Assembly (NCBI GenBank): GCA_001897605.1 | Contig: MKTL01000016.1 | Location: 366,458 to 430,457 of the forward strand | Direction of reading: 5' to 3' | DNA from: Clostridiales bacterium 38-18 | GTDB taxonomy: Bacteria; Bacillota; Clostridia; Peptostreptococcales; Acidaminobacteraceae | Length of the DNA: 64,000 nucleotides | The notes under the pieces: generated by a model | Told to the model about the DNA's origin: nothing | What the model saw: only the letters and a program-made list of their open reading frames with translations | Database searches by the model: none | Shown here: positions 12,429 to 39,216 of the stretch, one piece after another | Position numbering within the stretch: position 1 is the stretch's first letter | Layout: the number at the start of each line of letters is the position of its first letter | Position numbers and translations under genes: made by a program

Positions 12429-12507
12429 AAACAACCTTTATAGATGACAGCTCACATTATACTCATTTAGGGTATAATGTGAGTAGGCATCAACAGGTTG
12501 TTTATTT
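12429..12507. other. Nested inverted-repeat structure after livJ
   Basis: An inner perfect 12-bp stem CTCACATTATAC / GTATAATGTGAG (12451-12483) lies inside an outer stem AAACAACCT / AGGTTGTTT that is followed by a T-rich tract. It could be the liv terminator or an operator for the hydrolase genes. The right inner arm contains a TATAAT. Confidence 0.55.
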
Positions 12508-20076: not shown

Positions 20077-20100
20077 TTAGCCGTCTCCTCTCAGTAGTAA

Positions 20101-21148: not shown

Positions 21149-21180
21149 AGCCATTTTATGGGAATTCCCTAAAATGGCTT
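21149..21180 (-). terminator. Terminator of the metal ATPase gene
   Basis: AAGCCATTTTA / TAAAATGGCTT with an inner GGG/CCC pairing. On the minus strand it is followed by TTTTTATTTTTT. Confidence 0.85.
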
Positions 21181-21236
21181 AATTGGTCTATTTGGTGTCT
21201 TGTCACTTGAAAATGCTTGTTAAAAATTAAGGAATT

Positions 21237-23363: not shown

Positions 23364-23414
23364 ATGAATACCCCTAAGTTAAAAGATTAGTTTAGTAAAT
23401 TGATTTCCAAGTAC

Positions 23415-23434
23415 ATATGAACAGTTGCTCATAT
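23415..23434 (-). promoter_or_regulatory. ArsR/SmtB-type operator of the metal ATPase
   Basis: ATATGAAC and GCTCATAT form an inverted repeat with a 4-bp centre, the form bound by ArsR/SmtB-family metal sensors. It covers about +4 to +23 of the predicted transcript. No ArsR-family gene is in the window. Confidence 0.65.
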
Positions 23435-23444
23435 GTTCAATTAT

Positions 23445-23473
23445 ATTTTAATCCAATTCTACTATGATGTCAA
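23445..23473 (-). promoter_or_regulatory. SigA promoter of the metal ATPase
   Basis: On the minus strand TTGACA (23468-23473), 17-bp spacer, TAAAAT (23445-23450). Confidence 0.8.
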
Positions 23474-23551
23474 TAGTATAGAAAGGTTGTATCAAAGTTA
23501 TTTGAGGTGTAAAATAGTGAAGGTAATGATGTGATTAGACAAGGAGCAATG

Positions 23552-25492
23552 ATGAGGAATTTTAACGGAAAGAAAATTGAGTTACTTGCGCCAGCCGGTA
23601 ATTTAGAAATTTTTAAAGGGATAGTAGACAGTCGCTGTGATGCGATCTACTTTGGTGGACAGCGTATGAACATGCGCATGATCCGCAAAGGATTTAACTT
23701 TAGTGACGCTGAATTAAAAGAAGCGGTGGAGTTGGCAAAAGAGAGAGAAAAAGCCACTTATATAACCGTCAATAACCTAATAGATGCGAACGAGCTTTCT
23801 GAATTAGACGATTATTTATTACTATTAGAAGACATAAAGCCAACTGGGATCATCGTACAGGATATGGCAGTACTTGAACGTGCAAACGCACTGGGTTTAA
23901 CCATCGAAAAGCACGCATCGGTTATGTTTAACGTACACAACACTGAAATGATACATGCACTTGAGTCACTTGGCGTTAGCAGAGTCGTGCTTTCACGTGA
24001 AGCGACCCTTGTAGATGCGGCACGATTTAAGAGGGAAGCCAATCTTGAGCTAGAGTATTTTACACATGGCGATATGTGTATCGCACATGGCGCTCAGTGT
24101 TATTACAGTGCCATGCTCTTTGGCATGAGCAGCAACAGAGGCAAATGCTTAAAGCCATGCAGATGGTGGTTTGAACGCGAAGGCAAGCAAGAATTCCCTC
24201 TGGCTGTAAAGGACATGTCCATGATTGCCCATCTCCCAGAGATGATTCATGCGGGGATTACGTCGTTTAAAATCGAAGGCAGAATGCGCGAAAGGGACTT
24301 TATCGTCAATCTCATCAACCACTATGGGGATGTGTTAGACGCTTATATCGCCGACCCTGTAAGCTATGATTATAAGGGTTCAGAAGCGTGGATCTATGAA
24401 AATCGTAAGCGCGATCTTTCAACTGCCTATGCTTTTGGCACACCTGGCGTCGCGAACATCAATACTCGATATGAAGGCACAGGCAAATTTTACAGCACAG
24501 GTAAAATGTTCAGTACCCCAACGGCAGAATCAAAAATTGAGCTACACCAAGTCAAGAATATTAAAGAAGTCTTTGCTGGTAAAACAGCCAAAGGCTTTAC
24601 AGATAAAAATAGCGAAAGCGACGAATTGCCATCCAATAACAGCAGTCGTTCTTTTAGTAACACAGAGCGTTTGGAGAAGCATAAGCTTTCAGTACGTGTG
24701 ATGGATATGGCACAAGCGCGCATCGCATTCGATAAGAAGGTAGATAGAATTTATCTCAGTGCAGATGTGTTTGAGCCAAAAACGCCATTTACGCTATCAC
24801 AAATCAAGGAACTCATCCGTGAAAAGGGGGATACAGAGGTGTATTGGTCGTTACCTAAGATGATGAGCGATGCACAAATCGAAACCTATCACGCTTGGTT
24901 TAAGAGACTTAAAGTAGAAGGCATTCATCTGGATGGCTTATTGATTACCAATCTAGGTGCACTCCATGCCTTTAAAGGCTATGGCTATAAAATGATAGGC
25001 GATTATTCGCTCAACCTCTTTAATGACATTGCAGTTAAAGGGTATGAGCAGCTTGGATTAAGTGCTTTTACACCATCCATCGAAATCCCTGCAGAGCATC
25101 TTGCTAACCTACTGGCTTCAGACTATGAGTTTGAAGTGATCTCACATGGTAGACTGACCAGTATGTATCTGTCACATGATCTTTACAAAGCCTACGGGAT
25201 TTCAACAGATGAAGCCTTGATTCTTGAAAACGAAGGTGGCAAGTATTTGATTCGCAAGGATGTGAATGGCATGTGCCATTTGTTGATGCAGATGGATTAC
25301 AGTTTAGTACCTTTGTTGAATGATCTTCCAGCAAGTCGCTTTAGAATTGAAGCACAGGAAATGTCATCAGAGAAGCTAATGGCAGTTATCGATTTACATC
25401 AAGAAATACTCGGTTCAGATCTTACGGTAGAAGCAGCTTTAAATGCGCTTAATGCTGTGACCGATGCCACACTTGGCGCAACGCGATTTTAG
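23552..25492 (+). CDS. U32-family peptidase-like protein
   Basis: About 646 residues. The N-terminus ELLAPAGNLEIFKGIVDS and the U32 signature EYFTHGDMCIAHGAQCYYS (residues ~165-190), followed by RGKCLKPCR and FKIEGRMR, place it in the U32 (collagenase-like) family. Some family members are tRNA- or cofactor-hydroxylation factors, not proteases, and conserved cysteines here fit an Fe-S site. AAGGAG at 23541-23546 favours ATG 23552. The long second half (from about residue 290) is the extended C-terminal region of the large U32 subgroup. An aminotransferase gene follows 8 bp later. Confidence 0.88.
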   Translation: MRNFNGKKIELLAPAGNLEIFKGIVDSRCDAIYFGGQRMNMRMIRKGFNFSDAELKEAVELAKEREKATYITVNNLIDANELSELDDYLLLLEDIKPTGIIVQDMAVLERANALGLTIEKHASVMFNVHNTEMIHALESLGVSRVVLSREATLVDAARFKREANLELEYFTHGDMCIAHGAQCYYSAMLFGMSSNRGKCLKPCRWWFEREGKQEFPLAVKDMSMIAHLPEMIHAGITSFKIEGRMRERDFIVNLINHYGDVLDAYIADPVSYDYKGSEAWIYENRKRDLSTAYAFGTPGVANINTRYEGTGKFYSTGKMFSTPTAESKIELHQVKNIKEVFAGKTAKGFTDKNSESDELPSNNSSRSFSNTERLEKHKLSVRVMDMAQARIAFDKKVDRIYLSADVFEPKTPFTLSQIKELIREKGDTEVYWSLPKMMSDAQIETYHAWFKRLKVEGIHLDGLLITNLGALHAFKGYGYKMIGDYSLNLFNDIAVKGYEQLGLSAFTPSIEIPAEHLANLLASDYEFEVISHGRLTSMYLSHDLYKAYGISTDEALILENEGGKYLIRKDVNGMCHLLMQMDYSLVPLLNDLPASRFRIEAQEMSSEKLMAVIDLHQEILGSDLTVEAALNALNAVTDATLGATRF

Positions 25493-25500
25493 GAGGGCTT

Positions 25501-26772
25501 ATGAACAATTGGCTATCACCAGAAGGGATTATAGATAAGAAGAAAACCTTTTTTTATCCCAACACCATGCACTTTTACAAGCAACCACCACATATCGTAA
25601 AAGGCGAGATGCAGTATCTATACGATCATAACGGTAAACGCTATACGGACTTCTTCGCAGGTGTGACCGTTTTAAACTGTGGACACAGCAATCCAGAGAT
25701 TATCAAGGCAATTGAACTGCAACTTGAAAATTTACAGCATACGTCCATCATTTATCTGACACAGCCTATGGTTGAACTTGCAGAAAAATTGGCAACGAAA
25801 CTACCTGGAGACATTCAGACCACCTTTTTCTGCAACAGTGGCACTGAGGCAAACGAAGGGGCATTGCTACTTGCGAGGATGCATACTGGCAAAAAAGGCT
25901 TTGTGGCATTGGAAGGTGGCTTACATGGTCGATCACATCTCACCATGAGTGTCACGGGTATCCCAATGTGGCGAATCGATCCCTTTTTAGAGGAGAATGT
26001 CTACTTTGCGCCTTGCTATGCGACGAGTGGTGAAGACACTGAAAGTGCAAGTCAAAAGACCATAGATGCCATTGAAGCGATACTAAAAGTACATGGTCAT
26101 GAGATTGCAGCCTTTATCGTAGAACCGATGCAAGGCAATGGCGGTATGATGGTGCCAAGTGATGATTTCTTTAAAAAGCTAAAACCCATTTTAGAAAAAC
26201 ACGAAGTTTTACTAATAGCAGATGAGGTTCAAACTGGTTTTGCTAGAACCGGTAGGTATTTCGCAGTGACACACTTTGATGTGGTGCCAGACATCATCAC
26301 CTATGCCAAAGCGCTCGGCAATGGTGTGCCAATCGGTGCATTCAGTGCAAGACCACATGTGGCAGCTTCCTTTAACAAGCCTTCCGCATCGACCTTAGGC
26401 GGGAATCCCGTTTCTTCAACTGCGGGTATAGCAGTCCTCGATTATATCGACCGACATGACTTGGTATCACAGACTGAAGTGCTTGGCGCAATTTTGAAAG
26501 CAGAACTGATAAAATTAAGTGAGCAGTTTGACTGTTTTAAAGAGGTTAGGGGACTCGGTTTGATGCTTGGGGTTGAGGTAGCTGGCGAGCGTTCACCAGA
26601 AATCGTGGATTATATTCTTGAAGAGATGAAAAACAGAGGCTTCATCATCGGTAAAAACGGTATGAATCGCAACGTACTTGCTTTTCAGCCACCACTGGTG
26701 ATAACGAAAGCGGATATTCAAGCGATGATCAACGAACTGATAGTGGTACTGGAATCTTTACCTATAATGTAA
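25501..26772 (+). CDS. Class III PLP-dependent aminotransferase
   Basis: A 423-residue cytosolic fold-type I aminotransferase. PLP-phosphate region CNSGTEANEGA, EGGLHGRSHLTMS, the ring-binding Asp in IADEVQTGFARTG, and the Schiff-base Lys in YAKALGNGVPIGAF are present. Class III enzymes act on omega-amino groups or on alanine-glyoxylate; the sequence resembles the alanine-glyoxylate/4-aminobutyrate branch, but the substrate is uncertain. It probably forms a two-gene operon with the U32 protein. Confidence 0.88.
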   Translation: MNNWLSPEGIIDKKKTFFYPNTMHFYKQPPHIVKGEMQYLYDHNGKRYTDFFAGVTVLNCGHSNPEIIKAIELQLENLQHTSIIYLTQPMVELAEKLATKLPGDIQTTFFCNSGTEANEGALLLARMHTGKKGFVALEGGLHGRSHLTMSVTGIPMWRIDPFLEENVYFAPCYATSGEDTESASQKTIDAIEAILKVHGHEIAAFIVEPMQGNGGMMVPSDDFFKKLKPILEKHEVLLIADEVQTGFARTGRYFAVTHFDVVPDIITYAKALGNGVPIGAFSARPHVAASFNKPSASTLGGNPVSSTAGIAVLDYIDRHDLVSQTEVLGAILKAELIKLSEQFDCFKEVRGLGLMLGVEVAGERSPEIVDYILEEMKNRGFIIGKNGMNRNVLAFQPPLVITKADIQAMINELIVVLESLPIM

Positions 26773-26866
26773 GTAAAAATAGACAAGAGAATAAGAAAAC
26801 AAGAACACAAGAAAATAAGAAAATAAGAAAACAAGTTAATAAGTTTAATATTTAGTAAGCATAATT
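26773..26866. repeat. AT-rich degenerate repeats after the aminotransferase gene
   Basis: Purine-rich low-complexity sequence built from variants of AATAAGAAAACAAG, leading into the ordered 19-bp repeat. No gene is seen. Confidence 0.6.
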
Positions 26867-27058
26867 AAAGTTACTAAGAAAAATAAAAGTTACTAAGAAA
26901 AATAAAAGTTACTAAGAAAAATAAAAGTTACTAAGAGAAATAAAAGTTACTAAGAGAAATAAAAGCTACTAAGAGAAAAAAAGCTACTAAGAGAAATAAA
27001 AGCTACTAAGAGAAATAAAAGCTACTTAGAAATATAAATGCTACTAAGAGGTATAATT
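26867..27058. repeat. Ten-copy 19-bp tandem repeat
   Basis: The core G(T/C)TACT recurs at 26870, 26889, 26908, 26927, 26946, 26965, 26983, 27002, 27021 and 27040, a 19-bp period with one 18-bp step. The first five units read GTTACT and the last five GCTACT, so the array is graded. There are no spacers and no open frame through it. Confidence 0.9.
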
Positions 27059-27078
27059 TAAACTAAAAGATAAAACAA

Positions 27079-27123
27079 AAATCCTACGGTCACATCAAAT
27101 AAAACGATGTGACCATAGGATTT
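27079..27123. terminator. Bidirectional terminator between the aminotransferase and ABC permease genes
   Basis: An 18-bp stem with one mismatch (AAATCCTACGGTCACATC / GATGTGACCATAGGATTT) has T-rich flanks on both sides. Confidence 0.9.
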
Positions 27124-27135
27124 ATTTTTTGATAA

Positions 27136-27876
27136 TTAGTCTCTCGTATTTTGCCAACGGCAAAGCTTTTTCTCAATAAAATCTATGCTTTGGAAGAGAA
27201 ATACGCCCATTAAGCTGATGGCAACGATGCCGGCAAACATCCCCTTATAATCGAGTTTTAACCAGCTGTCCATGATGTAGTACCCGATCCCGTACTTGGT
27301 CGCAAAGTTCTCTGCAAAAAAGAGTACGGAGATAGAGGTACCTATGCTGACTCTTAATGACGTTAAGAGATTGGGCAGTAGTGCGGGGATAATGAGGTGC
27401 CTATAAACTTGAGTCTTTGATGCGCCAAGTGTTTGCATGGCCGTAAAATAGCTTTTGTTAATCCCTTTGACACCATCTCGTGTACTGACGAGGATTTGGA
27501 AAATCAAAATCAAACCGACAAGGATGATTTTTGATAGATTGCCTAGTCCAAAGAAAAGCATCAATAAAGGAAGAAATGCAATTTTAGGCACAGGATAAAG
27601 CGCGTAGATAACAGGTGACAACCAGCTGTCGAGTTTGGGATGCATCGCAATTAGGATTCCTATCGGAGCACCAATAATGACTGTAAAAAAGATTGCAACT
27701 AGGATTCGATATAAGCTATAGACAACATGAAGGCCAATGGTTGGCGCATGCTTTACGAAAACCATAAAAGTATCATGTGGTGCGGGTACGAGTCTTTGAC
27801 CAGCAGTGAAGCTCATGAGATACCAGACGATAAGTATAACACAGAGTGCATAAAGGTGGCGTTTTGACTGTTTCAT
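27136..27876 (-). CDS. ABC transporter permease, NitT/TauT (SsuC-like) family
   Basis: A 246-residue inner-membrane protein with about six hydrophobic helices. The cytoplasmic EAA loop region TAMQTLGASKTQVYRHLIIPALLPN is typical of taurine/nitrate/thiamine-precursor type importers. Its start overlaps the ATPase stop by 4 bp (ATGA). It is the last gene of the ubiD-ubiA-ubiX-ATPase-permease operon. The matching binding protein is most likely the divergent lipoprotein gene at 31977. The substrate is inferred only from neighbours. Confidence 0.9.
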   Translation of the reverse strand: MKQSKRHLYALCVILIVWYLMSFTAGQRLVPAPHDTFMVFVKHAPTIGLHVVYSLYRILVAIFFTVIIGAPIGILIAMHPKLDSWLSPVIYALYPVPKIAFLPLLMLFFGLGNLSKIILVGLILIFQILVSTRDGVKGINKSYFTAMQTLGASKTQVYRHLIIPALLPNLLTSLRVSIGTSISVLFFAENFATKYGIGYYIMDSWLKLDYKGMFAGIVAISLMGVFLFQSIDFIEKKLCRWQNTRD

Positions 27877-28634
27877 CTAGCACCTCCATCTGCAAGGTGA
27901 ATTTCTTTCATCGCCTGTCTGATCTGTAGGCAGAGCGCATAAAATTCAGGCTTTTCACGAAGCTCAAGGTCACCGAAGCTGGGGTTATCAAAGCGATGTG
28001 TGATTGCACCACCCGTTTGTGACATCAGTAAGATCTCACGTCCAAGGAATACGGCTTCTTCAATGTTATGTGTAACCGTAACCCAAGTGGTCTCTTGTTT
28101 ACTAGAAAGACCGATCACTGAATTTTGAAGCGCTTCCCGGGTGATGGTATCCAGTGCTGAAAACGGTTCATCCATCAGTAGTAGCTCTGGGCTTAATAGC
28201 CATGCACGACCTATAGCAACCCTTTGTTTTTGCCCACCACTGAGCTGGTGTGGGTACTTGTCCAGATGTGTATCGAGACCTAATTTAATGGCTAATTTTG
28301 CGATAGAATCCGTCATTTCAGAGCTGAGTTTTTTATACTTGATGATCAGACCTAGCGAAAGATTTTCTCTGACGGTTTTCCATGGAAACAGCCCGTACTC
28401 CTGTAATACAGTCGCAACGTGTGAAGGTGTAGACTCGCTTTCGAAGTTTAAGTTACCGGTCTTTGGCTGAATCAAGCCTCCCAACGTAAAGAGTAGCGTC
28501 GTCTTACCACAGCCAGAATGTCCGATTAAGGTATAGGATTTTCCCTTTTCTAAGGTAAGTGTCAAGTTATCTATAATGGTTTGTTCACCATAGCCTACTG
28601 TAACTTCATTAAGTGTGAGCAGATGTTTACGCAT
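27873..28634 (-). CDS. ABC transporter ATPase, NitT/TauT (SsuB-like) family
   Basis: Cytoplasmic ATPase of about 253 residues: Walker A GHSGCGKTT, Q-loop VLQEYGLFPWKTV (typical of TauB/SsuB), signature LSGGQKQRVAIGRAW and Walker B LLLMDEPFSALD. I choose ATG 28634, six bases after GGGGAG; the longer frame starts inside ubiX. It overlaps the ubiX stop by 8 bp, which ties the transporter tightly to the prenylation genes. Confidence 0.92.
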   Translation of the reverse strand: MRKHLLTLNEVTVGYGEQTIIDNLTLTLEKGKSYTLIGHSGCGKTTLLFTLGGLIQPKTGNLNFESESTPSHVATVLQEYGLFPWKTVRENLSLGLIIKYKKLSSEMTDSIAKLAIKLGLDTHLDKYPHQLSGGQKQRVAIGRAWLLSPELLLMDEPFSALDTITREALQNSVIGLSSKQETTWVTVTHNIEEAVFLGREILLMSQTGGAITHRFDNPSFGDLELREKPEFYALCLQIRQAMKEIHLADGGAR

Positions 28635-29208
28635 GTGTTTCTCCCCAAACGCGGTGTGACTCTGATTTGATTCCCAGAGATAATAGCACTCTGGCAGCCG
28701 TCTGTGTGACGATTTCATCTACAGTCGTAGGTCGATTGTAATAGGCAGGTACTGGTGGCAATATAGTCGCGCCATTCTGCGTGAGGGTCAACATGTTTTG
28801 TAGATGAATGCCGCTAAGTGGCGTCTCTCTCGTGACGAGAACGAGGGGTCTTTTTTCCTTTAAAGCAACATCCGCCGCTCGGATAATCAAAGTATCTGAA
28901 ATGCCATGCGCGATTTTCCCCAAGGTCCCCATACTACAAGGCACGATGACCATGGCATCTATGCTATAGGAGCCACTTGCCAGTTGTCCGAAGAGATCGG
29001 TGTTATCATACTTTATAAAGTGCGGGTGACTTAAGTAGTTTGAAAGCCATGTCGCATAAGGCGTTTCAAGTTCATAGGAAAGCACTTTTTCACCCACTTG
29101 CGTCGCCACAAAGTGAACCTCGTGCCCACCGTCGAGTAGCTGCTTGATGACGCTGTTTGCAAGTGTACTGCCACTGGCGCCAGTAAGACCAACAGCGATT
29201 TTTTTCAT
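28627..29208 (-). CDS. ubiX: Flavin prenyltransferase UbiX
   Basis: Makes prenylated FMN, the cofactor of UbiD-type carboxy-lyases, from FMN and dimethylallyl (mono)phosphate. The 193 residues are typical. N-terminal flavin motif GLTGASGS, VIVPCSMGTLGKIAHGIS in the middle, and LVTRETPLSGIHLQNM with PAYYNRPTT near the end match the family. It lies between the UbiA-type prenyltransferase and the ABC ATPase, in the same operon as a UbiD homologue that would need its product. Confidence 0.95.
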   Translation of the reverse strand: MKKIAVGLTGASGSTLANSVIKQLLDGGHEVHFVATQVGEKVLSYELETPYATWLSNYLSHPHFIKYDNTDLFGQLASGSYSIDAMVIVPCSMGTLGKIAHGISDTLIIRAADVALKEKRPLVLVTRETPLSGIHLQNMLTLTQNGATILPPVPAYYNRPTTVDEIVTQTAARVLLSLGIKSESHRVWGETHA

Positions 29209-29242
29209 AGGGTTTCCTTTCTATCTCACAATTGAAAATCCT

Positions 29243-30136
29243 TTATTTTAAGAAAATATCAAGTGTGGTTGTAATCAACAGTTGTGTTGAAATCAGTTGG
29301 TTGATATGATAAGCTGCAAAATTCATTTTGATACGGTGTCCGGGATCGATTAAGCCGTGCTCGATCAGTAGAAGTAAAGCGCTGATGCCAACACCGACGT
29401 AATAAATCACGCCTAGACCAGCCAATACGCCTACCGCAATTAAAAGCCCCCACATGATCAGGTGGAAGGTTCTTGCGATAGTGAGTGCGCCTTTCAACCC
29501 GAAACGAGCAGGGATTGAAAAGAGGCCAGTCGCTCGATCGAAGTCGATGTCTTGAGTGCCATAGATGATATCGAAGCCAGCGATCCAAAGGGTAACGATG
29601 GCACCTAGAAGAAATGGGATCCAGTCGATACCAGCGGTTACAGCAATCCAAGCGCCTACTGGTGCACCTGCACAAGTTATACCGAGGACGATGTGGCAGA
29701 GCCATGTGAAACGTTTGGTATAGCTATAAAGTGTAAAAAGTGCTAGTGCAACCGGTGAAAGATAAAAACAAAGCGTGTTGATTTGATAAGCACCAAATAC
29801 GAATAAGATATAGCAAAGCGCTGTAATAATTAACACTTCTTTCGACTTCACGATGCCTTTGGGCATGTGTCGATGCTGTGTCCTTGGATTGAGCGCATCG
29901 TACTTTTGATCAACGTAGCGGTTGAGCGCATTGGCGCCATTTCTACCAGCAAATAGACAGACCATAACCCATATGAAGGTATGGAGATCAGGAAAGCCTT
30001 TTGCTGCGATAAAGAGCGAGATCAGTGCAAAGGGGAGCGAAAAAAGCGTATGAGAGAACATAACGAGCTCGCCATAGGTATTGATTTTACTAAAAACCCT
30101 TTGCAACCAACCTTGTGTATTATTATTTAATGCCAT
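29243..30136 (-). CDS. UbiA-family aromatic prenyltransferase
   Basis: A 297-residue membrane protein with about eight or nine hydrophobic helices. Both Asp-rich prenyl-diphosphate motifs are present: NRYVDQKYDALNPRT and YGTQDIDFDRATG. The second resembles 4-hydroxybenzoate polyprenyltransferase (UbiA) and its futalosine-pathway counterpart (MqnP) rather than MenA. It overlaps the ubiD gene by 14 bp. The likely reaction is attachment of a polyprenyl chain to an aromatic acid, then decarboxylation by UbiD. The aromatic substrate is unknown. Confidence 0.88.
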   Translation of the reverse strand: MALNNNTQGWLQRVFSKINTYGELVMFSHTLFSLPFALISLFIAAKGFPDLHTFIWVMVCLFAGRNGANALNRYVDQKYDALNPRTQHRHMPKGIVKSKEVLIITALCYILFVFGAYQINTLCFYLSPVALALFTLYSYTKRFTWLCHIVLGITCAGAPVGAWIAVTAGIDWIPFLLGAIVTLWIAGFDIIYGTQDIDFDRATGLFSIPARFGLKGALTIARTFHLIMWGLLIAVGVLAGLGVIYYVGVGISALLLLIEHGLIDPGHRIKMNFAAYHINQLISTQLLITTTLDIFLK

Positions 30137-31859
30137 ATTTGTCCCATCTTTCTGTCACATAGGCTTTCATTTCGTCAGACATCTCGATATCATCTGGCCA
30201 AGGACGATGTAAGCCATCTGTAGGTCCTTTTTTCGTGGCATCCAGCGCGATATAGAGTCGATCGTGTGCGTTTTTACCCGTCATCATATCGCGTTTTGGA
30301 TCGATGTTATTAAAAATCTTCCAAAACACTGTGGATAAATCTTCTGGTTTAACCCATTCATCCACAACGACAACGAGACGGTGTTCGCCTTTTTCGTTTT
30401 CTTTCATGATGTCATGCGCAGTCTGTGAAGCGTTGGCCTTATCAAAAGGAATGACCTTAAGTGCTTTAAGGGGTGCATCATAAGAACGCGTTTGATTGTA
30501 GCTTGGATCGAACTCAACTTCTCTTTTGCGGGTTGCATCGACACCCAATCTAAAGCCTTGGAAGGCTCTATTAGAGGCATGATCCAGTGCATCAAGTGGT
30601 CCTTCCGTAATGATGAGATGACTTTCATCGGTCACATTTGCCTCAAGTGCAGCGGCAACTGCTTGATAATCATGCACGTTAACCGTATGGTCAACGACGA
30701 TAATCATTTTGGTATACATCATCTGACCGAGACCCCAGAGACCGTAGAGCACCTTATTGGCGTGTCTTGGGAAGGCCTTTTTAATAGAGACGATGGCACA
30801 GTTGTGAAACACGCCTTCAAGTGGCATGTCCATATCTATGATTTCAGGTGTTTGTATTTTCATTAGTGGTAAAAAGATGCGCTCAGTTGCCTTTCCGAGA
30901 TAACAATCCTCCATCGGTGGCTTGCCCACTATGGTCGTCGGATAAATCGCGCCATTACGATGCGTGATTTTCTCCAGATGAAATACAGGATACTGATCGG
31001 CAAGAGAATAATAGCCCGTGTGATCCCCAAATGGACCTTCCAGGCGTCGCTCGTCTAAATCCACATAACCTTCGAGGATAAACTCAGCTTCAGCGGGAAC
31101 GTAGATGTCGTTGGTAACGGATTTGACCAACTTAACCGGTTTCTTTTTAAGGTAGCCAGCAAAAATCATTTCATCGACCATTTTTGGTAGTGGGGCAGTT
31201 GCGGCATAGATGATTGTTGGATCACATCCTATCGCTACTGAAACCGGCATTTTCTTCCCTAGTTTTCTATATTTTTCGTAGATTTCTTTTCCATCTTTGT
31301 GTAGGTGCCAGTGCATACCTGTGGTTTTTGCATCGTAAACCTGCATACGGTACATACCGACATTTTGCTGACCGTTATCAGGGTCTTTGGTAAAGACCAG
31401 TGGTAGGGTGATGTATTTACCGCCGTCATCTGGCCAACATTTTATGATAGGCAATAAGTCGAGGTTGGGTTCGATGATCACATCCTGACAAGCCCCTTTC
31501 TTTACCTTTCGTGGAAATATAAACGGGAGTGGTGCAAGCTTTGGAATGGCTTTAACCTTTCCTAATAGTGAAGCATAAGCGCCAACGTCCATATAGCCTG
31601 CAATTTCTTTAGCGATATCATCTAAGTTTGTAACGCCAAAGCTCAGATTGAGTCGCTCGTAAGTGCCCATTGCATTGATGACCAGTGGGAAACTCGATCC
31701 TTTAACGTTATTAAACTGTAGTGCATTACCGTATTTTTTTGAGATTCTGTCTGCGATTTCTGTGATTTCTAATTCTGGGTCAACTTCTATATCTATCTCT
31801 GTGAGAAGTTCTCTTTCTTTTAAAGCTTTCAGGAAGCTCTGAAGATTTTTATAGGGCAT
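30123..31859 (-). CDS. UbiD-family prenyl-FMN-dependent carboxy-lyase
   Basis: A 578-residue decarboxylase. Family motifs include NVGMYRMQVYD, TGMHWHLHKDG (cofactor and metal region), LEGPFGDHTGYYS (catalytic acidic region), and GKPPMEDCYLGKATE. It is longer than E. coli UbiD (about 500) and closer to the size of UbiD-like proteins assigned to menaquinone synthesis (MqnL-type). It is first in the minus-strand operon, with a consensus promoter upstream and UbiX, which makes its cofactor, two genes downstream. Confidence 0.9.
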   Translation of the reverse strand: MPYKNLQSFLKALKERELLTEIDIEVDPELEITEIADRISKKYGNALQFNNVKGSSFPLVINAMGTYERLNLSFGVTNLDDIAKEIAGYMDVGAYASLLGKVKAIPKLAPLPFIFPRKVKKGACQDVIIEPNLDLLPIIKCWPDDGGKYITLPLVFTKDPDNGQQNVGMYRMQVYDAKTTGMHWHLHKDGKEIYEKYRKLGKKMPVSVAIGCDPTIIYAATAPLPKMVDEMIFAGYLKKKPVKLVKSVTNDIYVPAEAEFILEGYVDLDERRLEGPFGDHTGYYSLADQYPVFHLEKITHRNGAIYPTTIVGKPPMEDCYLGKATERIFLPLMKIQTPEIIDMDMPLEGVFHNCAIVSIKKAFPRHANKVLYGLWGLGQMMYTKMIIVVDHTVNVHDYQAVAAALEANVTDESHLIITEGPLDALDHASNRAFQGFRLGVDATRKREVEFDPSYNQTRSYDAPLKALKVIPFDKANASQTAHDIMKENEKGEHRLVVVVDEWVKPEDLSTVFWKIFNNIDPKRDMMTGKNAHDRLYIALDATKKGPTDGLHRPWPDDIEMSDEMKAYVTERWDKYGIK

Positions 31860-31884
31860 ACCTTCCTCCTTATTAACACCTTAG

Positions 31885-31913
31885 ATTATAGCCATTTTAA
31901 GGGCTGGTGTCAA
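31885..31913 (-). promoter_or_regulatory. SigA promoter of the ubiD-ubiA-ubiX-ABC operon
   Basis: On the minus strand TTGACA (31908-31913), 17-bp spacer, TATAAT (31885-31890): both hexamers match consensus. Constitutive strength is expected unless a repressor acts. Confidence 0.85.
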
Positions 31914-31923
31914 TTTAGCTATA

Positions 31924-31952
31924 TTGACTGACTTGGTCGAATATGTTAGCAT
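31924..31952 (+). promoter_or_regulatory. SigA-type promoter of the binding-protein gene
   Basis: TTGACT (31924-31929), 17-bp spacer, TAGCAT (31947-31952). It is back to back with the ubiD promoter, so the two transcripts could share control. Confidence 0.55.
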
Positions 31953-31976
31953 GATTAGGTTGACAAGGAGGACATC

Positions 31977-32909
31977 ATGAAAAAAATGATAACAGTAATG
32001 CTTGCTATTTTATTAGTTGCAAGCTTAGTACTTGCAGGCTGTTCTGCAAAGGAAGAAGAGAAACAAAGCCTTAGAATTGGCGTTATGTCAGATTTAGGGG
32101 CTGCGCCATTTGTCGTTGCAAAGGAAAATGGCTTTTTCGATAAATTAGGATTAGATGTAGAAATCACGGTATTCAAAAGTGCTACAGATAGAGATACCGC
32201 AATGCAAACGGGCAACTTAGACGCTGCAATGGCAGATATGTTAACGATTGTATTTTATAACGACGGTGCATTTGATTCTAAAATGATTGCTGCAACCTAT
32301 GGTGACTATGTGATGTCATCGACACCAAGCCTAGATGCATCTGCCTTAAAAGCACTTGATCAAATCAATGTGGGTATTTCTGCAAACACCGTTATCGATT
32401 TTGCAACGCAACAAATCGCTGAGAGCTTAGGCGTTGAAGGTCAAGTAGAAACGGTTGCAATTCCACAAATGCCAGTAAGACTTGAAATGCTTGCCGCTGG
32501 TGAACTTCAAGCGGCGACATTACCTGAGCCTTTGGCATCAGCTGCTGTTTTAGGTGCTGGCGAGAAAGTGAGCGGTACTTTGGAGTTAGGGCTTGAGCCA
32601 GGGATCTTTATCGCGACACAAGCGGTAATCGATGAAAAATCTGCAGCTTTAGAGAAGCTAATGGAAGGTTACAATCAAGGTGTCGATTATTTGAATGATA
32701 CAGAGCAAGGCACTTATATTCAACTTTTAATCGATCAGTTGGGTTTCCCACCAACACTTGCAGAGTCGTTTGACTTCCCAACACTTGCACATGCAACTGC
32801 AGCAAACGAAGCAACATTTGCTAAAGTACTTTCTTGGATGCAAGAAAGAGAACTAACAACTTCTGAATACAGTTATTCAGACTTAAACGAAGGCAAGTTC
32901 ATCAAATAG
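31977..32909 (+). CDS. ABC transporter substrate-binding lipoprotein, NitT/TauT (SsuA/ThiY-like)
   Basis: A 310-residue extracytoplasmic protein. The lipoprotein signal peptide has lipobox LAGC with Cys22. The mature part is a type II binding fold of the NMT1/SsuA type: RIGVMSDLGAAPFVVAKENGFFDKLGL near the N-terminus and the AMADMLTIVFY ligand-pocket segment. The enzymes MqnA and MqnD share this fold but have no lipoprotein signal, so this is a transport component. It is divergent from the ubiD operon, which encodes the matching ATPase and permease. Confidence 0.9.
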   Translation: MKKMITVMLAILLVASLVLAGCSAKEEEKQSLRIGVMSDLGAAPFVVAKENGFFDKLGLDVEITVFKSATDRDTAMQTGNLDAAMADMLTIVFYNDGAFDSKMIAATYGDYVMSSTPSLDASALKALDQINVGISANTVIDFATQQIAESLGVEGQVETVAIPQMPVRLEMLAAGELQAATLPEPLASAAVLGAGEKVSGTLELGLEPGIFIATQAVIDEKSAALEKLMEGYNQGVDYLNDTEQGTYIQLLIDQLGFPPTLAESFDFPTLAHATAANEATFAKVLSWMQERELTTSEYSYSDLNEGKFIK

Positions 32910-32951
32910 TCGTCAACAAAATAAGTCTTTGGTAAAATTGAATAAAAAAGT

Positions 32952-32997
32952 AAAGGACCGTAACCAATCAAAATTTGATTGATTTCGGTCCTTTTTT
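32952..32997 (+). terminator. Terminator of the binding-protein gene
   Basis: Outer stem AAGGACCG / CGGTCCTT with an inner AATCAAA-type hairpin, followed by six T. Confidence 0.85.
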
Positions 32998-33004
32998 AAT
33001 CATA

Positions 33005-33058
33005 TGAAAAAGAGCTATTACGCATCTATTTAACTAGATTTGCAACAGCTCCTTTTTT
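33005..33058 (-). terminator. Terminator of the MarR gene
   Basis: Stem AGCTGTTGC..ATCTA / TAGAT..ATAGCT with internal mismatches. On the minus strand it is followed by CTTTTT. Confidence 0.65.
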
Positions 33059-33067
33059 ATTACCGTT

Positions 33068-33541
33068 TTAGTTGTTCCTTCCGTTTGAAGGAAAGAGCGT
33101 TTCAGAGAGCAGATGATTGAGATTGGAAAAGGACTGATCCAATTTTTCTAGTGTTTTGAAATCGAGGTCAAGTAATTGTGATGCCATTTCATCACCGAAG
33201 CTATCGAGGGTTGATTCCACGATTTGCTTGCCTTTTTCAGTTAATGAAATGTAATAAATTCTCTTGTCCTCGAGGTCAATTTGCTTTTGTATATAGCCAT
33301 TTTCAATTGCAGTTTTTACGTATCTACTACAATTAGGTAATGAAATGTTTAGAATTTCAGAAACTTCTGAAATCATCAATTTCTCATGGCGATACACAGT
33401 ATGTAGCAATTTGAATTCAAGTTTACTCACTGCCTCTGCTTGATTCTTGATGATGCTAGACTGAATAACTTCTTCGTAAAAATCGTTGAAAATCATGACT
33501 TGTTTCAAAATGTTTTTGATCTTATGGTTGTTGTCCTTCAT
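33068..33541 (-). CDS. MarR-family transcriptional regulator
   Basis: A 157-residue winged-helix protein. The recognition region ISEVSEILNISLPNCSRYVKTA is near residues 57-78 and the wing KQIDLEDKRIYYISLTEKGK near 87-106; both are typical of MarR. It stands alone between the binding-protein terminator and proA, with no clear partner gene. FabT, the repressor of fatty acid genes, is also a MarR protein, and a fab operon lies 2.3 kb away; nothing in the sequence proves that link. Confidence 0.85.
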   Translation of the reverse strand: MKDNNHKIKNILKQVMIFNDFYEEVIQSSIIKNQAEAVSKLEFKLLHTVYRHEKLMISEVSEILNISLPNCSRYVKTAIENGYIQKQIDLEDKRIYYISLTEKGKQIVESTLDSFGDEMASQLLDLDFKTLEKLDQSFSNLNHLLSETLFPSNGRNN

Positions 33542-33613
33542 TTGTCAATCACACTCCTTAACTCATTATAAAATGACAGATATATAATTGCAACCTACAA
33601 TCCTGTCAGAAAA

Positions 33614-34894
33614 CTATTTTCTGATTTGACCTGTCCCATAAACGATATATTTAATCGTGGTTAATGCTTTCAGCCCCATTGGACCTCTTGCATGTAGTTT
33701 TTGTGTACTAATGCCTATTTCAGCGCCAAAGCCAAACTGTCCACCGTCTGTAAAACGCGTAGAAGCATTGACATATACAGCTGAGGAGTCCACACTTGCA
33801 AGGAATTTTTGTGCGTGCTCATAATAATCCGTTAAAATGGCCTCACTATGACCCGTACTGTAGTTGTCGATATGATCGACGGCTTCAGTTAAGCTATCAA
33901 CTACTTTTATAGCTAATTTGAAATCGAGGTACTCGGTTTGATAATCCACTTCAGTTGCATGCCATGCGCTTGATAGATCACAATTTGAAGCTTCAGCTAT
34001 CTCCCAGCTCTTATCACAAAGTGCAACACTGACGTTTGATGCTTTCAGTGAAGTGAGTAGCGTAGGAAGAAGCTCAGGGGCGATACGGTTATGAATAAGA
34101 ACCGTTTCAACCGCATTACATGCACCAGGCCTTTGAACCTTTGCATTGAGAATGATGTCCACACTTTTTTCGATAGAATAATATTCGTCTACATAAATAT
34201 GGCAGTTGCCTGTTCCTGTTTCAATCATTGGCACCTTAGAATGCTCAGCGACAAATTGAATTAAACCTGCGCCGCCTCTAGGGATCACACAGTCAATGGC
34301 ATCTCTTGCACTTAAAAGCTGCTTAGTAAAGTCGCGATCTGGCGTTTTCACAAGTTGAACGGTACCTACCGGCATGCCTTGCTTTTCTATAGCGGCGTCA
34401 ATTGCCTTTAAAAGCGCAATATTGGTCGTGAGCGCATCAGAACCACCCTTGAGGATAACTGCATTACCAGTCTTTAAACAAAGCGCAGTGGCGTCCACAG
34501 TGACGTTTGGACGGGATTCATAAATCATAGCGATTACACCAAGCGGCACGCGTTTTTGACCGATACTGAGTCCAGCTTCATTTAGCCACATAGCATCGAC
34601 TTCACCTACAGGATCACTTAATAGAGCGACTTCTTCCAGCCCTTGGATCATTTCGTTAAATCGTTGATCGGTAAGCGAGAGTCTTTCTACCATTGCTTCC
34701 TTTAAGCCACCCGCTCTAGCATCAGCGACATCAATGCTATTTGCAGAGAGTATATCTGTCTTGGCATTTATAAGCTCTTCCTTAATCGCTAATAGCAATT
34801 GATTCTTATCTGCTGTAGATAAGGTTCTTAGAACTTTGGAAGCTTCTTTAGCAAGCTTTCCCATCTTTTTAATATCTTCACTATAATTTTGCAT
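33614..34894 (-). CDS. proA: Gamma-glutamyl phosphate reductase
   Basis: NADPH-dependent reduction of glutamyl-5-phosphate to the semialdehyde, second proline step. About 426 residues. The catalytic Cys is in VQRPGACNAVET, and GVIAMIYESRPNVTVDA and LKGGSDALTTN are family motifs. The start is ATG 34894, with GGGGAT upstream; the longer open frame starts within proB. It lies 4 bp after the proB stop. No proC is in the window. Confidence 0.95.
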   Translation of the reverse strand: MQNYSEDIKKMGKLAKEASKVLRTLSTADKNQLLLAIKEELINAKTDILSANSIDVADARAGGLKEAMVERLSLTDQRFNEMIQGLEEVALLSDPVGEVDAMWLNEAGLSIGQKRVPLGVIAMIYESRPNVTVDATALCLKTGNAVILKGGSDALTTNIALLKAIDAAIEKQGMPVGTVQLVKTPDRDFTKQLLSARDAIDCVIPRGGAGLIQFVAEHSKVPMIETGTGNCHIYVDEYYSIEKSVDIILNAKVQRPGACNAVETVLIHNRIAPELLPTLLTSLKASNVSVALCDKSWEIAEASNCDLSSAWHATEVDYQTEYLDFKLAIKVVDSLTEAVDHIDNYSTGHSEAILTDYYEHAQKFLASVDSSAVYVNASTRFTDGGQFGFGAEIGISTQKLHARGPMGLKALTTIKYIVYGTGQIRK

Positions 34895-34898
34895 ATTT

Positions 34899-35690
34899 TT
34901 ATCCCCTAAAATCAAAAAATGTACCGTCTGCATTCCCCTCTAGTAGTAGATTGAGAATGTTAGGTGTGCCACTATTGACAATTAACATCGTTTTTTCAGC
35001 GCTTGCAATGATGCGAGCTGCTTTGAATTTGGTTTGCATACCACCAGTTCCCACTTTAGAGCCAGCGTCTCCAGCATCAATCTTTGATAAATCATCAAGA
35101 GAGTTGATTTTAGGAATCATAGTTGCGTCCTCAAACTTCCTAGGGTCTTTATTATATACCCCATTAATGTCTGATAAAATAATTAAATTTTCAAAATCAA
35201 TCATTTTACAAACTGCAGCCGACAAAGTGTCATTATCGCCTACTTTGATCTCATCTATAGCCACCACATCGTTCTCATTGACGATGGGAATTACGCTGTG
35301 TTTTGTAAGTGCAGAGAGTGCGTTAACACTATGTGTTTTTCTCTGAGGGTCTACCATATCTTCCTTAGTAAGTAATACCTGAGCGACAGTTATCCCATAT
35401 TCAGAGAAGAATTTTTCGTACATATGCATTAGAGTACCTTGTCCGACTGCTGCAGCTGCTTGCTTTTCGGGAATAGATTTAGGCTTCTCGGGCAGTTTCA
35501 TCTTTCCAATCCCAGCAGCGATAGCGCCAGAAGAGACGACGATGATCGATCGACCGCTATTATATAGATTAGCAATTTGTTTGACGATGCTCTCCATCTT
35601 CCAAAGATCTAGTAAGCCACTTTCATGTGTTAACGAGGAAGAGCCAATTTTGATAACGATTTTATTAAATTCTTTAATTGAGTGTTTCAT
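34899..35690 (-). CDS. proB: Glutamate 5-kinase (no PUA domain)
   Basis: Phosphorylates glutamate, first step of proline synthesis. Motifs: KIGSSSLT (ATP/phosphate) at the N-terminus, VSSGAIAAGIGKM, IVNENDVVAIDEIKVGDND, LSDINGVYNKDPR and GTGGMQTKFKAA. At 263 residues it is only the amino-acid-kinase domain; the C-terminal PUA domain of E. coli ProB is absent, as in many Bacillota. It is first of proB-proA. Confidence 0.95.
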   Translation of the reverse strand: MKHSIKEFNKIVIKIGSSSLTHESGLLDLWKMESIVKQIANLYNSGRSIIVVSSGAIAAGIGKMKLPEKPKSIPEKQAAAAVGQGTLMHMYEKFFSEYGITVAQVLLTKEDMVDPQRKTHSVNALSALTKHSVIPIVNENDVVAIDEIKVGDNDTLSAAVCKMIDFENLIILSDINGVYNKDPRKFEDATMIPKINSLDDLSKIDAGDAGSKVGTGGMQTKFKAARIIASAEKTMLIVNSGTPNILNLLLEGNADGTFFDFRG

Positions 35691-35712
35691 ACCTGCCTCC
35701 TAAATTTCAATG

Positions 35713-35742
35713 AGTATATCACAATTAAAGGCGCATTGTAAA
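35713..35742 (-). promoter_or_regulatory. SigA-type promoter of proB-proA
   Basis: On the minus strand TTTACA (35737-35742), 18-bp spacer, TATACT (35713-35718). No T-box leader fits in the short 5' UTR. Confidence 0.65.
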
Positions 35743-35788
35743 GACGTTAACAGTTTAACGAACATACAAAAAAATATATATGGAACTG

Positions 35789-35826
35789 AAAAAAGAAGTC
35801 TATGTGCATGGTTGACACATAGACTT
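35789..35826 (-). terminator. Terminator of the fab operon
   Basis: A perfect 11-bp stem AAGTCTATGTG / CACATAGACTT, followed on the minus strand by CTTTTTT, 14 bp after the fabZ stop. Confidence 0.88.
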
Positions 35827-35839
35827 AATGGAGGATTTT

Positions 35840-36265
35840 CTATCCAATCATAAAGGAAAGTTCTGCTTCACAAGCGACCGTATCACCCACGTAAGCAACT
35901 GCCTTTCCAACACCGAAATTAGAGCGTGATTTAATAATTTCGATGGTGAGTGTAAGCGTATCACCTGGAATAACTTTTCTTCGGAATTTACAGTTGTTAA
36001 TAGAGGCAAAATAAGCTATTTTACCTTGGTTTTCGGGCTTTTTTAGGATGGCGATTGCACCTACTTGAGCAAGTGCTTCTACTATAAGAACGCCCGGCAT
36101 AACGTGTTCAGAAGGAAAATGACCTTGGAAAAACGATTCATTTGCAGTTACGTTTTTAATACCAGTCGCTTTTACCCCTTCTTCTAGCTCTAGGATTTGA
36201 TCCACAAGCATAAAGGGATAGCGGTGTGGTATGATTTCTTGTATTTGATTACTATTTAATAGCAT
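35840..36265 (-). CDS. fabZ: 3-hydroxyacyl-ACP dehydratase FabZ
   Basis: Dehydrates 3-hydroxyacyl-ACP in each elongation cycle; hot-dog fold, 141 residues. The catalytic His is in [19 protein letters not shown], with the Glu on the following helix. N-terminal [11 protein letters not shown] is typical. It is last in the fab operon, 2 bp after fabF, and is followed by the operon terminator. Confidence 0.96.
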
Positions 36266-36267
36266 AA

Positions 36268-37506
36268 TTAACCTCTGTATTTCGCAAATATAAGCGATGC
36301 ATTATGACCACCAAAGCCGAGAGAATTTGTAAGCGCATATTCAACTTCTTGGTTTCTACCTGTATTAGGTACATAATCAAGGTCACATTGTGGATCAGCT
36401 TCATTGAAATTAATCGTAGCGGGAACATAACTATTTTGAATTGAAAGTGCACAAACAGCAGATTCAATACCACCAGCTGCACCGAGGAGGTGACCAGTCA
36501 TTGACTTAGTCGAGGATACCGGTACTTTATAAGCATAATCGCCAAACGCGGTTTTGATTGCAGCAGTTTCGAAGATGTCGTTGTATGGCGTACTTGTTCC
36601 ATGAGCGTTGATGTAACCCACTTTTTCAGGTGCTATATCGGCGTCTTTTAGTGCCATCTTCATCGCTCTAGCGCCACCCTCGCCACCTGGAGCAGGTGTC
36701 GTGATGTGGTGTGAATCACTTGTTGTACCATATCCAACAAGCTCAGCGTAAATTTTTGCGCCACGTGCTTTTGCATGGTCGAGTCTTTCGAGGACGAGCA
36801 TCGCAGAACCCTCTGCCATAACAAAGCCACTTCTGTCTTTGTCGAAAGGAATCGATGCACGCATTGGGTCTGTCGATTCACAAAGTGCAGTCATTGCTTG
36901 GAAACCGCCGATACCGAGTTTTGAGATAGATGCTTCAGTACCACCTGCTAAGATCACATCGTGTGTACCGTATCTGAGTTCTTTTAAAGCCTCTCCAATA
37001 GCACTTGCACTTGATGCACAAGCTGTGTTGTAAGTGAGACATGAACCTTTGATACCAAGTTCGATAGAAACATTACCAGCAGCTAGGTTGGCAATCGATT
37101 GTGGGATAAAGAAAGGTGAAATTCGATCCACGCCTTTAGTCATCATTTTTTCAGCAGTTTCTTCTATAGTAATAAGACCACCGATACCATTACCGAGGTA
37201 GACGCCAACATTTTGTGCATTGTCATCGGTGATTGTAAGTCCAGAATCTTCAAGAGCCATTTTAGATGCAGTGATTGCAAAGTGTGTAAAGCGATCCATA
37301 CGCTTTGCATCTTTTTTATTAATGGTTAAAGTCGGGTCGTAATCTTTGATTTCGCCTGCAACTTTGACTTTAAAATCAGTTGTATCAAACGATTCAATGT
37401 GGCTGATACCACATTTACCTGCTTTTATGCCATTCCAAAAATTTTCAACGCCTTGACCGATTGGTGAAACGATACCGATGCCTGTTACAACTACTCTATG
37501 TTTCAT
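36268..37506 (-). CDS. fabF: 3-oxoacyl-ACP synthase II
   Basis: Condensing enzyme for chain elongation, about 412 residues. The Cys-His-His catalytic triad is visible in [23 protein letters not shown] and [15 protein letters not shown]. The start is ATG 37506, with TTAGGAGG seven bases upstream; the longer frame starts inside fabG. No fabH (initiating condensing enzyme) is in this operon. Confidence 0.96.
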
Positions 37507-37519
37507 GTTTCCTCCTAAA

Positions 37520-38242
37520 TTACATAGCCATTCCGCCGTCAACTTGAACGACTTGGCCTGTGATGTATTTTGCTTGCTCCGATGCTAAGAAGACGACGAG
37601 ATTAGCTACGTCCTCAGCTTCTCCAAATTTACCCATTGGAATATTCGATAAAGTAGCTTGTTTTACAGTTTCATCAATCACATCTGTCATGTGGGTTGCG
37701 ATGAATCCTGGTGCAACAGCATTGACACGAACACCCCTAGGTGCTAGTTCTCTAGCAACTGCTTTTGTGAAACCGATAACGCCTGCTTTTGAAGCCGCAT
37801 AGTTTGCTTGACCGATATTACCAGAGATACCAACTACTGAAGAAATATTGACGATTGAACCGAAGCGTTGTTTGAACATAATTTTAGCAACGTGCTTTGT
37901 GCAGTTAAAAGTACCTTTTAGGTTGGTATTGTTAACTGCGTCAAAGTCTTCCTCAGACATTCTAACGAGAAGGGTGTCTTTAGTAATCCCAGCATTGTTG
38001 ACGAGTAAATCAATCCTACCAAAATGATCAAAGGCAGCCTTTGCGAGATGCTCTGCGTCTTCAAATGAACTAACATCACCTTTGACAAGAAGTGCATCTG
38101 CGCCAATTTCATCGACGAATGCTTTAAGCTCATCTTCATTTTTTCTGTAATTTAGAACCAAACTGTAGTTTGCTTTAGCAAGTGCCTCTGCGATACATCT
38201 TCCGATACCTCTACCGGCACCTGTTACGATAGCTACTTTCAT
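37520..38242 (-). CDS. fabG: 3-oxoacyl-ACP reductase
   Basis: NADPH-dependent short-chain dehydrogenase, 240 residues. Cofactor motif GAGRGIGRCIAEA, NNAGITKD, catalytic Ser in NISSVVG, and YAASKAG with the catalytic Tyr and Lys; C-terminal VNAVAPGFIATHMT and GQVVQVDGGMAM fit FabG. It lies between fabD and fabF. Confidence 0.96.
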   Translation of the reverse strand: MKVAIVTGAGRGIGRCIAEALAKANYSLVLNYRKNEDELKAFVDEIGADALLVKGDVSSFEDAEHLAKAAFDHFGRIDLLVNNAGITKDTLLVRMSEEDFDAVNNTNLKGTFNCTKHVAKIMFKQRFGSIVNISSVVGISGNIGQANYAASKAGVIGFTKAVARELAPRGVRVNAVAPGFIATHMTDVIDETVKQATLSNIPMGKFGEAEDVANLVVFLASEQAKYITGQVVQVDGGMAM

Positions 38243-38250
38243 GATGCCTC

Positions 38251-39207: not shown

Positions 39208-39216
39208 AAATGCCTC

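Follow-up and report, generated by a model that had tools for sequence, protein, structure and literature searches.

The 64,000-nucleotide stretch of DNA analysed here (the window) is part of contig MKTL01000016.1 of Clostridiales bacterium 38-18, a relative of Fusibacter in the class Clostridia whose genome assembly measures 3.4 Mb and is 98% complete. Judged by the binding protein described below, its closest named relatives are Fusibacter bizertensis, the metagenome-assembled genome FUSI1, F. ferrireducens, Fusibacter sp. 3D3 and F. paucivorans. Our subject is a minus-strand unit with the gene order ubiD–ubiA–ubiX–ATPase–permease, adjoined by the divergent gene of a NitT/TauT-type binding lipoprotein. 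The list of open reading frames (ORFs) and scans with Pfam and NCBIfam profiles bear out the gene families, coordinates and strands proposed in a first-pass annotation of this DNA. The features are as follows.

30123–31859, minus strand: UbiD-family decarboxylase dependent on prenylated flavin mononucleotide (prenyl-FMN), apparently of MqnL type, 578 aa (TIGR03701; PF01977)
29243–30136, minus strand: UbiA-family polyprenyltransferase, apparently MqnP-like, 297 aa (TIGR01475; DIDFD motif)
28627–29208, minus strand: UbiX flavin prenyltransferase (prenyl-FMN for UbiD), 193 aa (TIGR00421)
27873–28634, minus strand: ATPase of an ATP-binding cassette (ABC) importer, 253 aa from the ATG at 28634 (PF00005; Walker A, LSGGQ, Walker B)
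27136–27876, minus strand: ABC importer permease, NitT/TauT type, 246 aa (PF00528)
31977–32909, plus strand: NMT1/SsuA-family substrate-binding lipoprotein, 310 aa (PF13379 and PF09084 over cut-off; lipobox LAGC)
31913–31885, minus strand: promoter-like site of the operon, TTGACA-17-TATAAT (12 of 12 consensus positions)
31960–31987, plus strand: uncertain promoter-like site overlapping the start of the lipoprotein gene (10 of 12 consensus positions)
27123–27079, minus strand: terminator-like hairpin just past the permease gene (19-pair stem and T-rich tail)

The genes are tightly packed, with the overlaps already described in the first-pass annotation: 14 bp between ubiD and ubiA, 8 bp between ubiX and the ATPase gene, and 4 bp between the ATPase and permease genes; ubiA and ubiX are separated by 34 bp. 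Because the importer genes overlap ubiX, they probably share its transcript. The consensus promoter noted earlier proved to be a perfect site, although the promoter-like and terminator-like sites are sequence consensus matches only. The plus-strand site covers the start codon of the lipoprotein gene and may be a chance match.

UbiD and UbiA fall closest to the enzymes of the futalosine pathway of menaquinone synthesis, and UbiX belongs to the MqnM/UbiX family. UbiD, the only match to PF01977 across the source genome, scores 643.6 bits on TIGR03701 (menaquinone biosynthesis decarboxylase, MqnL; cut-off 495.9). It aligned with Escherichia coli UbiD (5m1c), to which it is 38% identical, as against 54–59% for eight UbiD proteins of MqnA loci. 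UbiA scores 292 bits on TIGR01475 (cut-off 180.8) and 111.7 bits, below the cut-off of 275.45, on the model for proteobacterial UbiA; identity is 36–45% to 17 UbiA proteins of MqnA loci and 29% to E. coli UbiA, and sequence comparison gave no meaningful match to MenA. UbiX, which aligned with the solved UbiX 7km2, scores 192.6 bits on TIGR00421 (cut-off 108.9). In trees of UbiD and UbiA the Mqn-locus proteins form one group beside those of the loci studied here, the branches that lead to the E. coli references are very long, and the groups are too poorly resolved for rooting. Taken together, these comparisons suggest that the UbiD is of MqnL type and the UbiA MqnP-like. As a separate observation, UbiD of the Fusibacter type is about 100 aa longer than most Mqn-locus UbiD proteins (578 against about 480 aa); Pfam splits its C-terminal domain into two stretches, so that residues 445–540 or thereabouts may contain an insertion or a partial repeat; a simple self-comparison detected no repeat.

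The locus encodes a complete NitT/TauT-type importer: lipoprotein, permease and ATPase are all present. The best NCBIfam matches of the permease are SaoP and TauC, both under cut-off. Twenty-two substrate-binding proteins (SBPs) from such loci align as a single family in which 18 columns are invariant; two of these are arginines, which could hold a carboxylate. An AlphaFold2 model of the lipoprotein (mean predicted local distance difference test score 92) has the NitT/TauT fold. Its best structural match is an ABC binding protein of Staphylococcus aureus (3un6, Z 27.8), followed by the bicarbonate- and nitrate-binding proteins CmpA and NrtA (Z about 27), SsuA and TauA (about 25), PqqT, which binds pyrroloquinoline quinone (PQQ), and the Mqn enzyme MqnD (2czl, Z 18.9). 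PqqT (9b1u, 9ooz) is alike in fold class (Z about 24; root-mean-square deviation 3.1–3.2 over 272–273 residues), yet the two proteins are only 12–13% identical and 3un6, CmpA and NrtA score higher; moreover, PQQ is used as such and is not finished into a lipid quinone. A shared fold of this kind does not by itself reveal the ligand. We also considered the lipoprotein as a catalytic enzyme akin to MqnA or MqnD, and rejected this as the principal interpretation in view of the lipobox, the neighbouring permease and ATPase genes, and the absence of PF02621 matches from the source genome. Next to the lipoprotein gene lies a gene for a MarR-type regulator (33068–33541), kept in the Fusibacter-type loci L029, L030 and L032 at 80–88% identity, which could regulate the lipoprotein gene.

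Among 61 genomes of relatives, 22 hold some UbiD and 10, the source genome included, hold the close type; the 12 with only distant UbiD (85–125 bits at best) were left out of the locus comparison. In all nine other close relatives, which belong to the family or order, permease and ATPase genes adjoin ubiD–ubiA, and in seven of them the SBP gene does so too; in G043 the distance between ubiD and an SBP-like gene is about 14 kb (L088). At the level of the class, 391 genomes were sampled, of which 23 matched TIGR03701 at an E-value of 1e-100 and 21, again counting the source genome, exceeded its cut-off (G189 and G279 fell below it and were left out). The 20 other class-level loci carry an SBP gene in 17 cases, permease and ATPase genes in 15, and SBP and/or permease in 18. 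Six named loci (L038, L039, L041, L042, L048 and L049) coincide with unnamed ones, and each place was counted once.

For comparison we used 40 control loci, drawn from the 103 MqnA-positive genomes in a phylum sample of 398; all 103 lie outside the class Clostridia. Their status as holders of MqnA/MqnD rests on the phylum-wide PF02621 search, and three of them (L226, L230, L231) matched no query. The controls contain ubiD in 8 cases, ubiA in 17 and an MqnC/MqnE-type protein in 37, the identity of the query as an MqnC/MqnE-type radical S-adenosylmethionine (SAM) protein having been checked on L205. No SBP or permease was found at any of the 40, even at an E-value of 1e-5. Fisher's exact test for SBP and/or permease, which ignores relatedness, gives 1e-5 for 18 of 20 against 0 of 8, and 2e-13 for 18 of 20 against 0 of 40. 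The linkage of the ubi genes to the importer is far above chance, and the ABC genes that the first-pass annotation placed beside ubiD and ubiA are thus kept in related genomes.

The linkage also holds in reverse. When 15 loci were picked by similarity to the window SBP, ubi genes stood alongside in 13. The two others, L051 and L052, where the importer adjoins apbE, were examined as counter-examples and set aside, since both genomes hold an MqnL-type UbiD elsewhere; all five SBP-picked genomes that were searched, those of L050, L051 and L052 among them, have such a protein. In the genomes of L051 and L052 the importer genes beside apbE lie at about 8780–12474, the L051 copy preceding Rex-like and hydrogenase-like genes, and ubiD–ubiA are found elsewhere together with a polyprenyl synthase gene. 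Gene order varies: the SBP gene diverges from the operon in the Fusibacter loci and in L132 and L134; it stands between ubiX and the ATPase gene in L122, L124–L127, L131, L135, L140 and L141; and in L139 ubiX is last. That the linkage survives such rearrangement speaks for a common function. Some loci hold further genes. L128 (7042–14895) has a geranylgeranyl-reductase-family protein before ubiD and, after the importer, a FixC/ETF-QO-like protein that weakly matches a quinone-binding domain; in L136 a gene for an M16C (PreP-like) peptidase lies between ubiA and the SBP gene, with an ORF of similar size there in L137 and L138.

To what extent can these genomes make a quinone by themselves? In the source genome there is no match to PF02621 (MqnA/MqnD), and the 32 UbiD-bearing genomes searched gave nine weak matches only (22–47 bits), as compared with 161–271 bits for full-length proteins and 85–95 for fragments elsewhere in the phylum. 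None of the 32 exceeded the MqnC cut-off of 428 bits; weak radical-SAM matches occur in all of them, the best of which (56 bits) is in the source genome. Since a true MqnE scores 401 bits on the MqnC model, this negative covers MqnE as well. MenD is likewise absent above its cut-off of 244.2 bits in all 32, with weak matches in 30 (best 82 bits). In the source genome nine methyltransferases match PF01209 at no more than 54 bits (Pfam cut-off 20.1). Considered as candidates for UbiE, they were discarded: rescanned on NCBIfam they reach at best 58.6 bits on MenG/UbiE (cut-off 158.35) and 74.5 bits on UbiG (cut-off 102.95), and one is MnmM. The searches, which covered MqnA/D, MqnC/E and MenD but not MqnB, MenA or other copies of UbiA, thus revealed no complete futalosine or Men pathway. 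Nor did the genome-wide searches place any PF02621 or PF01209 match within the window, in keeping with the earlier statement that neither mqnA/mqnD nor a UbiE-type gene is found there.

A possible user of a quinone is suggested by three loci. In L036, L037 and L133 a single cluster contains, in this order, genes for a type II NADH dehydrogenase (NDH-2), NusG_II, PF07456 and polyprenyl synthase, followed by ubiD, ubiA, the ATPase and the permease; L133 includes ubiX too, after ubiA. NusG_II we take to be EetA. In the source genome the first four of these genes form a separate cluster on another contig (L083 8174–16409, contig C4), and the same four-gene cluster is found in G001, G018, G023 and G030. 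PF07456 is EetB, which the relevant part of a published account ties to the export of flavin adenine dinucleotide (FAD) for extracellular electron transfer (EET) in Listeria (PMC9973259). Among eight scanned proteins of the source ndh2 neighbourhood none was recognised as DmkA, PplA or FmnB, and no genome-wide search for these was made. Close to the source cluster lies a gene for a second U32 protein (U32 plus DUF3656).

From gene content, operon structure, protein families and linkage we infer a ligand, a direction of transport, a product and a user. On the outside of the cell, the lipoprotein would capture a soluble aromatic acid for import by the permease and ATPase. UbiA would then attach a polyprenyl chain supplied by the polyprenyl diphosphate synthase; UbiX would make prenyl-FMN, with which UbiD would take off the carboxylate. 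The product, delivered to the membrane, would be demethylmenaquinone, for no MenG was recognised. It would probably be used by the membrane NDH-2, whose gene lies with the EetA/EetB-type genes in another part of the genome, in electron transfer that is NDH-2-linked or extracellular. Among possible ligands 1,4-dihydroxy-6-naphthoate, with which the soluble part of the futalosine pathway ends, is the likeliest. We favour it because the retained enzymes, of MqnP/MqnL/MqnM type, would act on this acid, and because the searches detected neither MqnA/D nor MqnC/E at the level expected. The first-pass annotation had offered two example ligands; of these 1,4-dihydroxy-6-naphthoate fits best, and 4-hydroxybenzoate fits less well with enzymes that are MqnL/MqnP-like. 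Its wider proposal of import, prenylation and decarboxylation is supported, having withstood both the genome pathway search and the neighbourhood survey. That the locus serves salvage of a quinone precursor of some kind, whichever the acid, we regard as highly probable, the remaining doubt belonging mainly to the flavin and chance explanations discussed below. The more specific reading, an operon for the import, prenylation and decarboxylation of 1,4-dihydroxy-6-naphthoate to demethylmenaquinone, is probable, with appreciable room for error.

Next to the operon, at lower window coordinates, lies a second gene pair, which bears on the alternatives.

23549–25492, plus strand: U32-family protein, 647 aa (PF01136; start given as 23531 in the ORF list)
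25501–26772, plus strand: class-III aminotransferase paired with the U32 gene (PF00202)

The pair occurs at 11 of 37 UbiD-type loci (6 of 17 Fusibacter-type and named loci, the window included, and 5 of 20 class loci) and at none of the 40 controls; a lone class-III aminotransferase without U32, as in L123 and control L225, was not counted. Besides the window (23549–26772) the pair is present in L029, L030, L040, L043, L044, L126, L130, L131, L132 and L135, and its position varies: in L130 it lies between the ATPase and permease genes, in L132 it follows the SBP gene, on that gene's strand. In a tree made uncertain by long branches, the 11 U32 proteins form a group distinct from E. coli UbiU, UbiV, TrhP and RlhA. 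They keep four clustered cysteines, also found in the RNA hydroxylases RlhA and TrhP. The window protein scores about equally on the UbiU model, named for anaerobic ubiquinone biosynthesis, and the TrhP model, named for prephenate-dependent tRNA hydroxylation (123 and 121 bits), far under both cut-offs. In an NCBIfam scan the aminotransferase resembles acetylornithine/GABA-type enzymes. The U32 protein might carry out an oxygen-independent hydroxylation, which would point to another precursor or to a new quinone.

A number of observations weigh against salvage of 1,4-dihydroxy-6-naphthoate to demethylmenaquinone. The U32–aminotransferase pair has no role in this scheme. On the model MqnP_DT, UbiA scores 301 bits, under the cut-off of 430; the UbiA from a genuine Mqn locus likewise stays under it (356). 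Importer genes are missing from the 14.9-kb stretch of L123; the contig of L129 ends in what resembles an SBP gene; and L132, L136 and L137 have the SBP gene with no permease gene on the stretch. In 6 of the 32 UbiD-bearing genomes PF02621 matches exceed the Pfam cut-off (26.1–47 bits; three more lie under it), and these six we provisionally take for binding proteins. The genome-wide pathway searches covered a limited set of genes, with UbiE sought in the source genome only. NDH-2 is present in 10 of 10 UbiD genomes tested, all of them UbiD-positive, so that this count amounts to no correlation. Finally, according to the passages of PMC9751042 that concern respiratory genes, five Fusibacter genomes lack succinate dehydrogenase/fumarate reductase, and Fusibacter strain 3D3 lacks arrC and cymA. 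The chemistry and order of the MqnP and MqnL steps are themselves a published prediction, one that in the section concerned asks for experiments (PMC4746308).

The rival explanations overlap, and their odds do not sum to one. It is rather unlikely, though still to be reckoned with, that the same salvage logic operates on another precursor handled by UbiA and UbiD: 4-hydroxybenzoate, or 1,4-dihydroxy-2-naphthoate (DHNA), an intermediate of the Men pathway. The substrates of UbiA and UbiD are unreadable from sequence alone, the U32 neighbour could provide oxygen-independent hydroxylation of a benzoate-derived ring, and parts of two reports describe how Lactococcus lactis secretes DHNA and Lactiplantibacillus plantarum makes use of it (PMC12421875, PMC10746273). 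Set against this are the MqnL/MqnP type of UbiD and UbiA, and the fact that none of the nine PF01209 candidates of the source genome reaches the level of UbiG, UbiE or MenG. For DHNA there is a further objection: MenA-type enzymes lose its carboxylate without UbiD, so that the retained UbiD and UbiX would be superfluous. An improbable variant, overlapping the last, is that prenylation and decarboxylation of the imported acid are followed by an oxygen-independent hydroxylation through the U32 protein, and perhaps by amination through the class-III aminotransferase, to yield a new quinone. The recurrence of the pair at UbiD-type loci and its absence from the controls, its place inside the operon in L130 and behind the SBP gene in L132, the separate grouping and clustered cysteines of the U32 proteins, and the near-equal scores on UbiU and TrhP are consistent with this; yet 26 of the 37 loci have no such pair within the stretch retrieved, the cysteines are common to RlhA and TrhP, the tree is uncertain, and the aminotransferase resembles enzymes of acetylornithine/GABA type.

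Might the importer instead carry a flavin, riboflavin or FMN, for UbiX and prenyl-FMN and for ApbE-dependent flavinylation in the NDH-2/EET system? We hold this to be quite improbable. Among the 15 loci picked by SBP, ubi genes are present in 13 and apbE in just two, and in the window the importer genes overlap ubiX, with which they probably share a transcript. An FMN or thiamine pyrophosphate (TPP) riboswitch was found in none of 31 loci at gathering score, and nothing appeared at an E-value of 1 in window positions 20000–40000, which speaks against a flavin or a thiamine-precursor importer alike; apart from two tRNAs, the scan matched only two cobalamin aptamers, one in L126 preceding another gene and one in L139 immediately after ubiX, before the gene that follows. 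On the other side of the balance, the broad family of the window SBP includes some riboflavin SBPs, apbE is a close neighbour of ubiD at 5 of the 20 class loci and adjoins the importer genes in L051 and L052, and the tie of EetB-type genes to FAD export (in the part of PMC9973259 noted above) would suit a need for flavin. That ordinary UbiD, UbiA and UbiX genes merely happen to lie near an unrelated sulfonate or taurine importer is extremely unlikely: the permease and SBP do resemble TauC/SsuA-type families, but the SBP is far under the sulfonate-family cut-off (65 against 163.5 bits) and linkage across many families with varied gene orders contradicts a chance association.

Salvage of 1,4-dihydroxy-6-naphthoate, our preferred interpretation, may be set beside systems already described. 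The UbiA-, UbiD- and UbiX-type enzymes belong to the same families as those of the late futalosine steps (MqnP, MqnL, MqnM); unlike the futalosine pathway, the window locus holds an ABC importer, and searches for MqnA/D and MqnC/E gave no match of the strength expected. The cluster of NDH-2, NusG_II, PF07456 and polyprenyl synthase genes, joined to ubiD in three loci, resembles the flavin-based EET locus of Listeria and Lactiplantibacillus (Ndh2, EetA, EetB, DmkA, DmkB). The Listeria layout, however, has a DmkA-type gene at the place that ubiD–ubiA(–ubiX) and the importer occupy in the joined clusters. Apparently incomplete de novo synthesis is a feature shared with gut isolates and Lactiplantibacillus, which respond to outside quinones or DHNA in the experiments reported in the relevant sections of PMC5738691 and PMC10746273. 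The same sections state that the transporters of those auxotrophs are undescribed or unidentified, whereas the window encodes a candidate importer together with finishing enzymes.

The need for such a transporter has been expressed repeatedly. A 2016 genome study states, in the passage concerned, that quinone-precursor transporters require prediction followed by validation (PMC4746308); a 2017 study of gut isolates notes at the corresponding point that none had been described (PMC5738691); and a 2023 study, where it discusses uptake, expects unidentified quinone-uptake pathways (PMC10746273). In the open-licence PubMed Central literature, judged by titles, abstracts and passages, with subscription journals and preprints outside this scope, we found no description of a quinone-precursor salvage operon with an importer. 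The enzymes and the importer are each of a known kind; it is their combination as a quinone-precursor salvage operon that appears, within that literature, to be new. A bolder generalisation, which we think unlikely to hold in full, is that many Clostridia are obligate quinone-precursor auxotrophs with a dedicated importer of a futalosine-pathway acid that arms NDH-2 and EET, and that in a subset the U32 protein, as an oxygen-independent hydroxylase, and the aminotransferase alter the ring to give an undescribed quinone.

Exchange of quinone precursors between bacteria has been proposed with the transporters missing, and the locus offers a concrete candidate importer with a predicted ligand. 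It also provides a gene marker for surveys of sediment and gut communities. If true, salvage of a quinone precursor would explain the presence of NDH-2 and EET genes in fermentative Clostridia without quinone biosynthesis.

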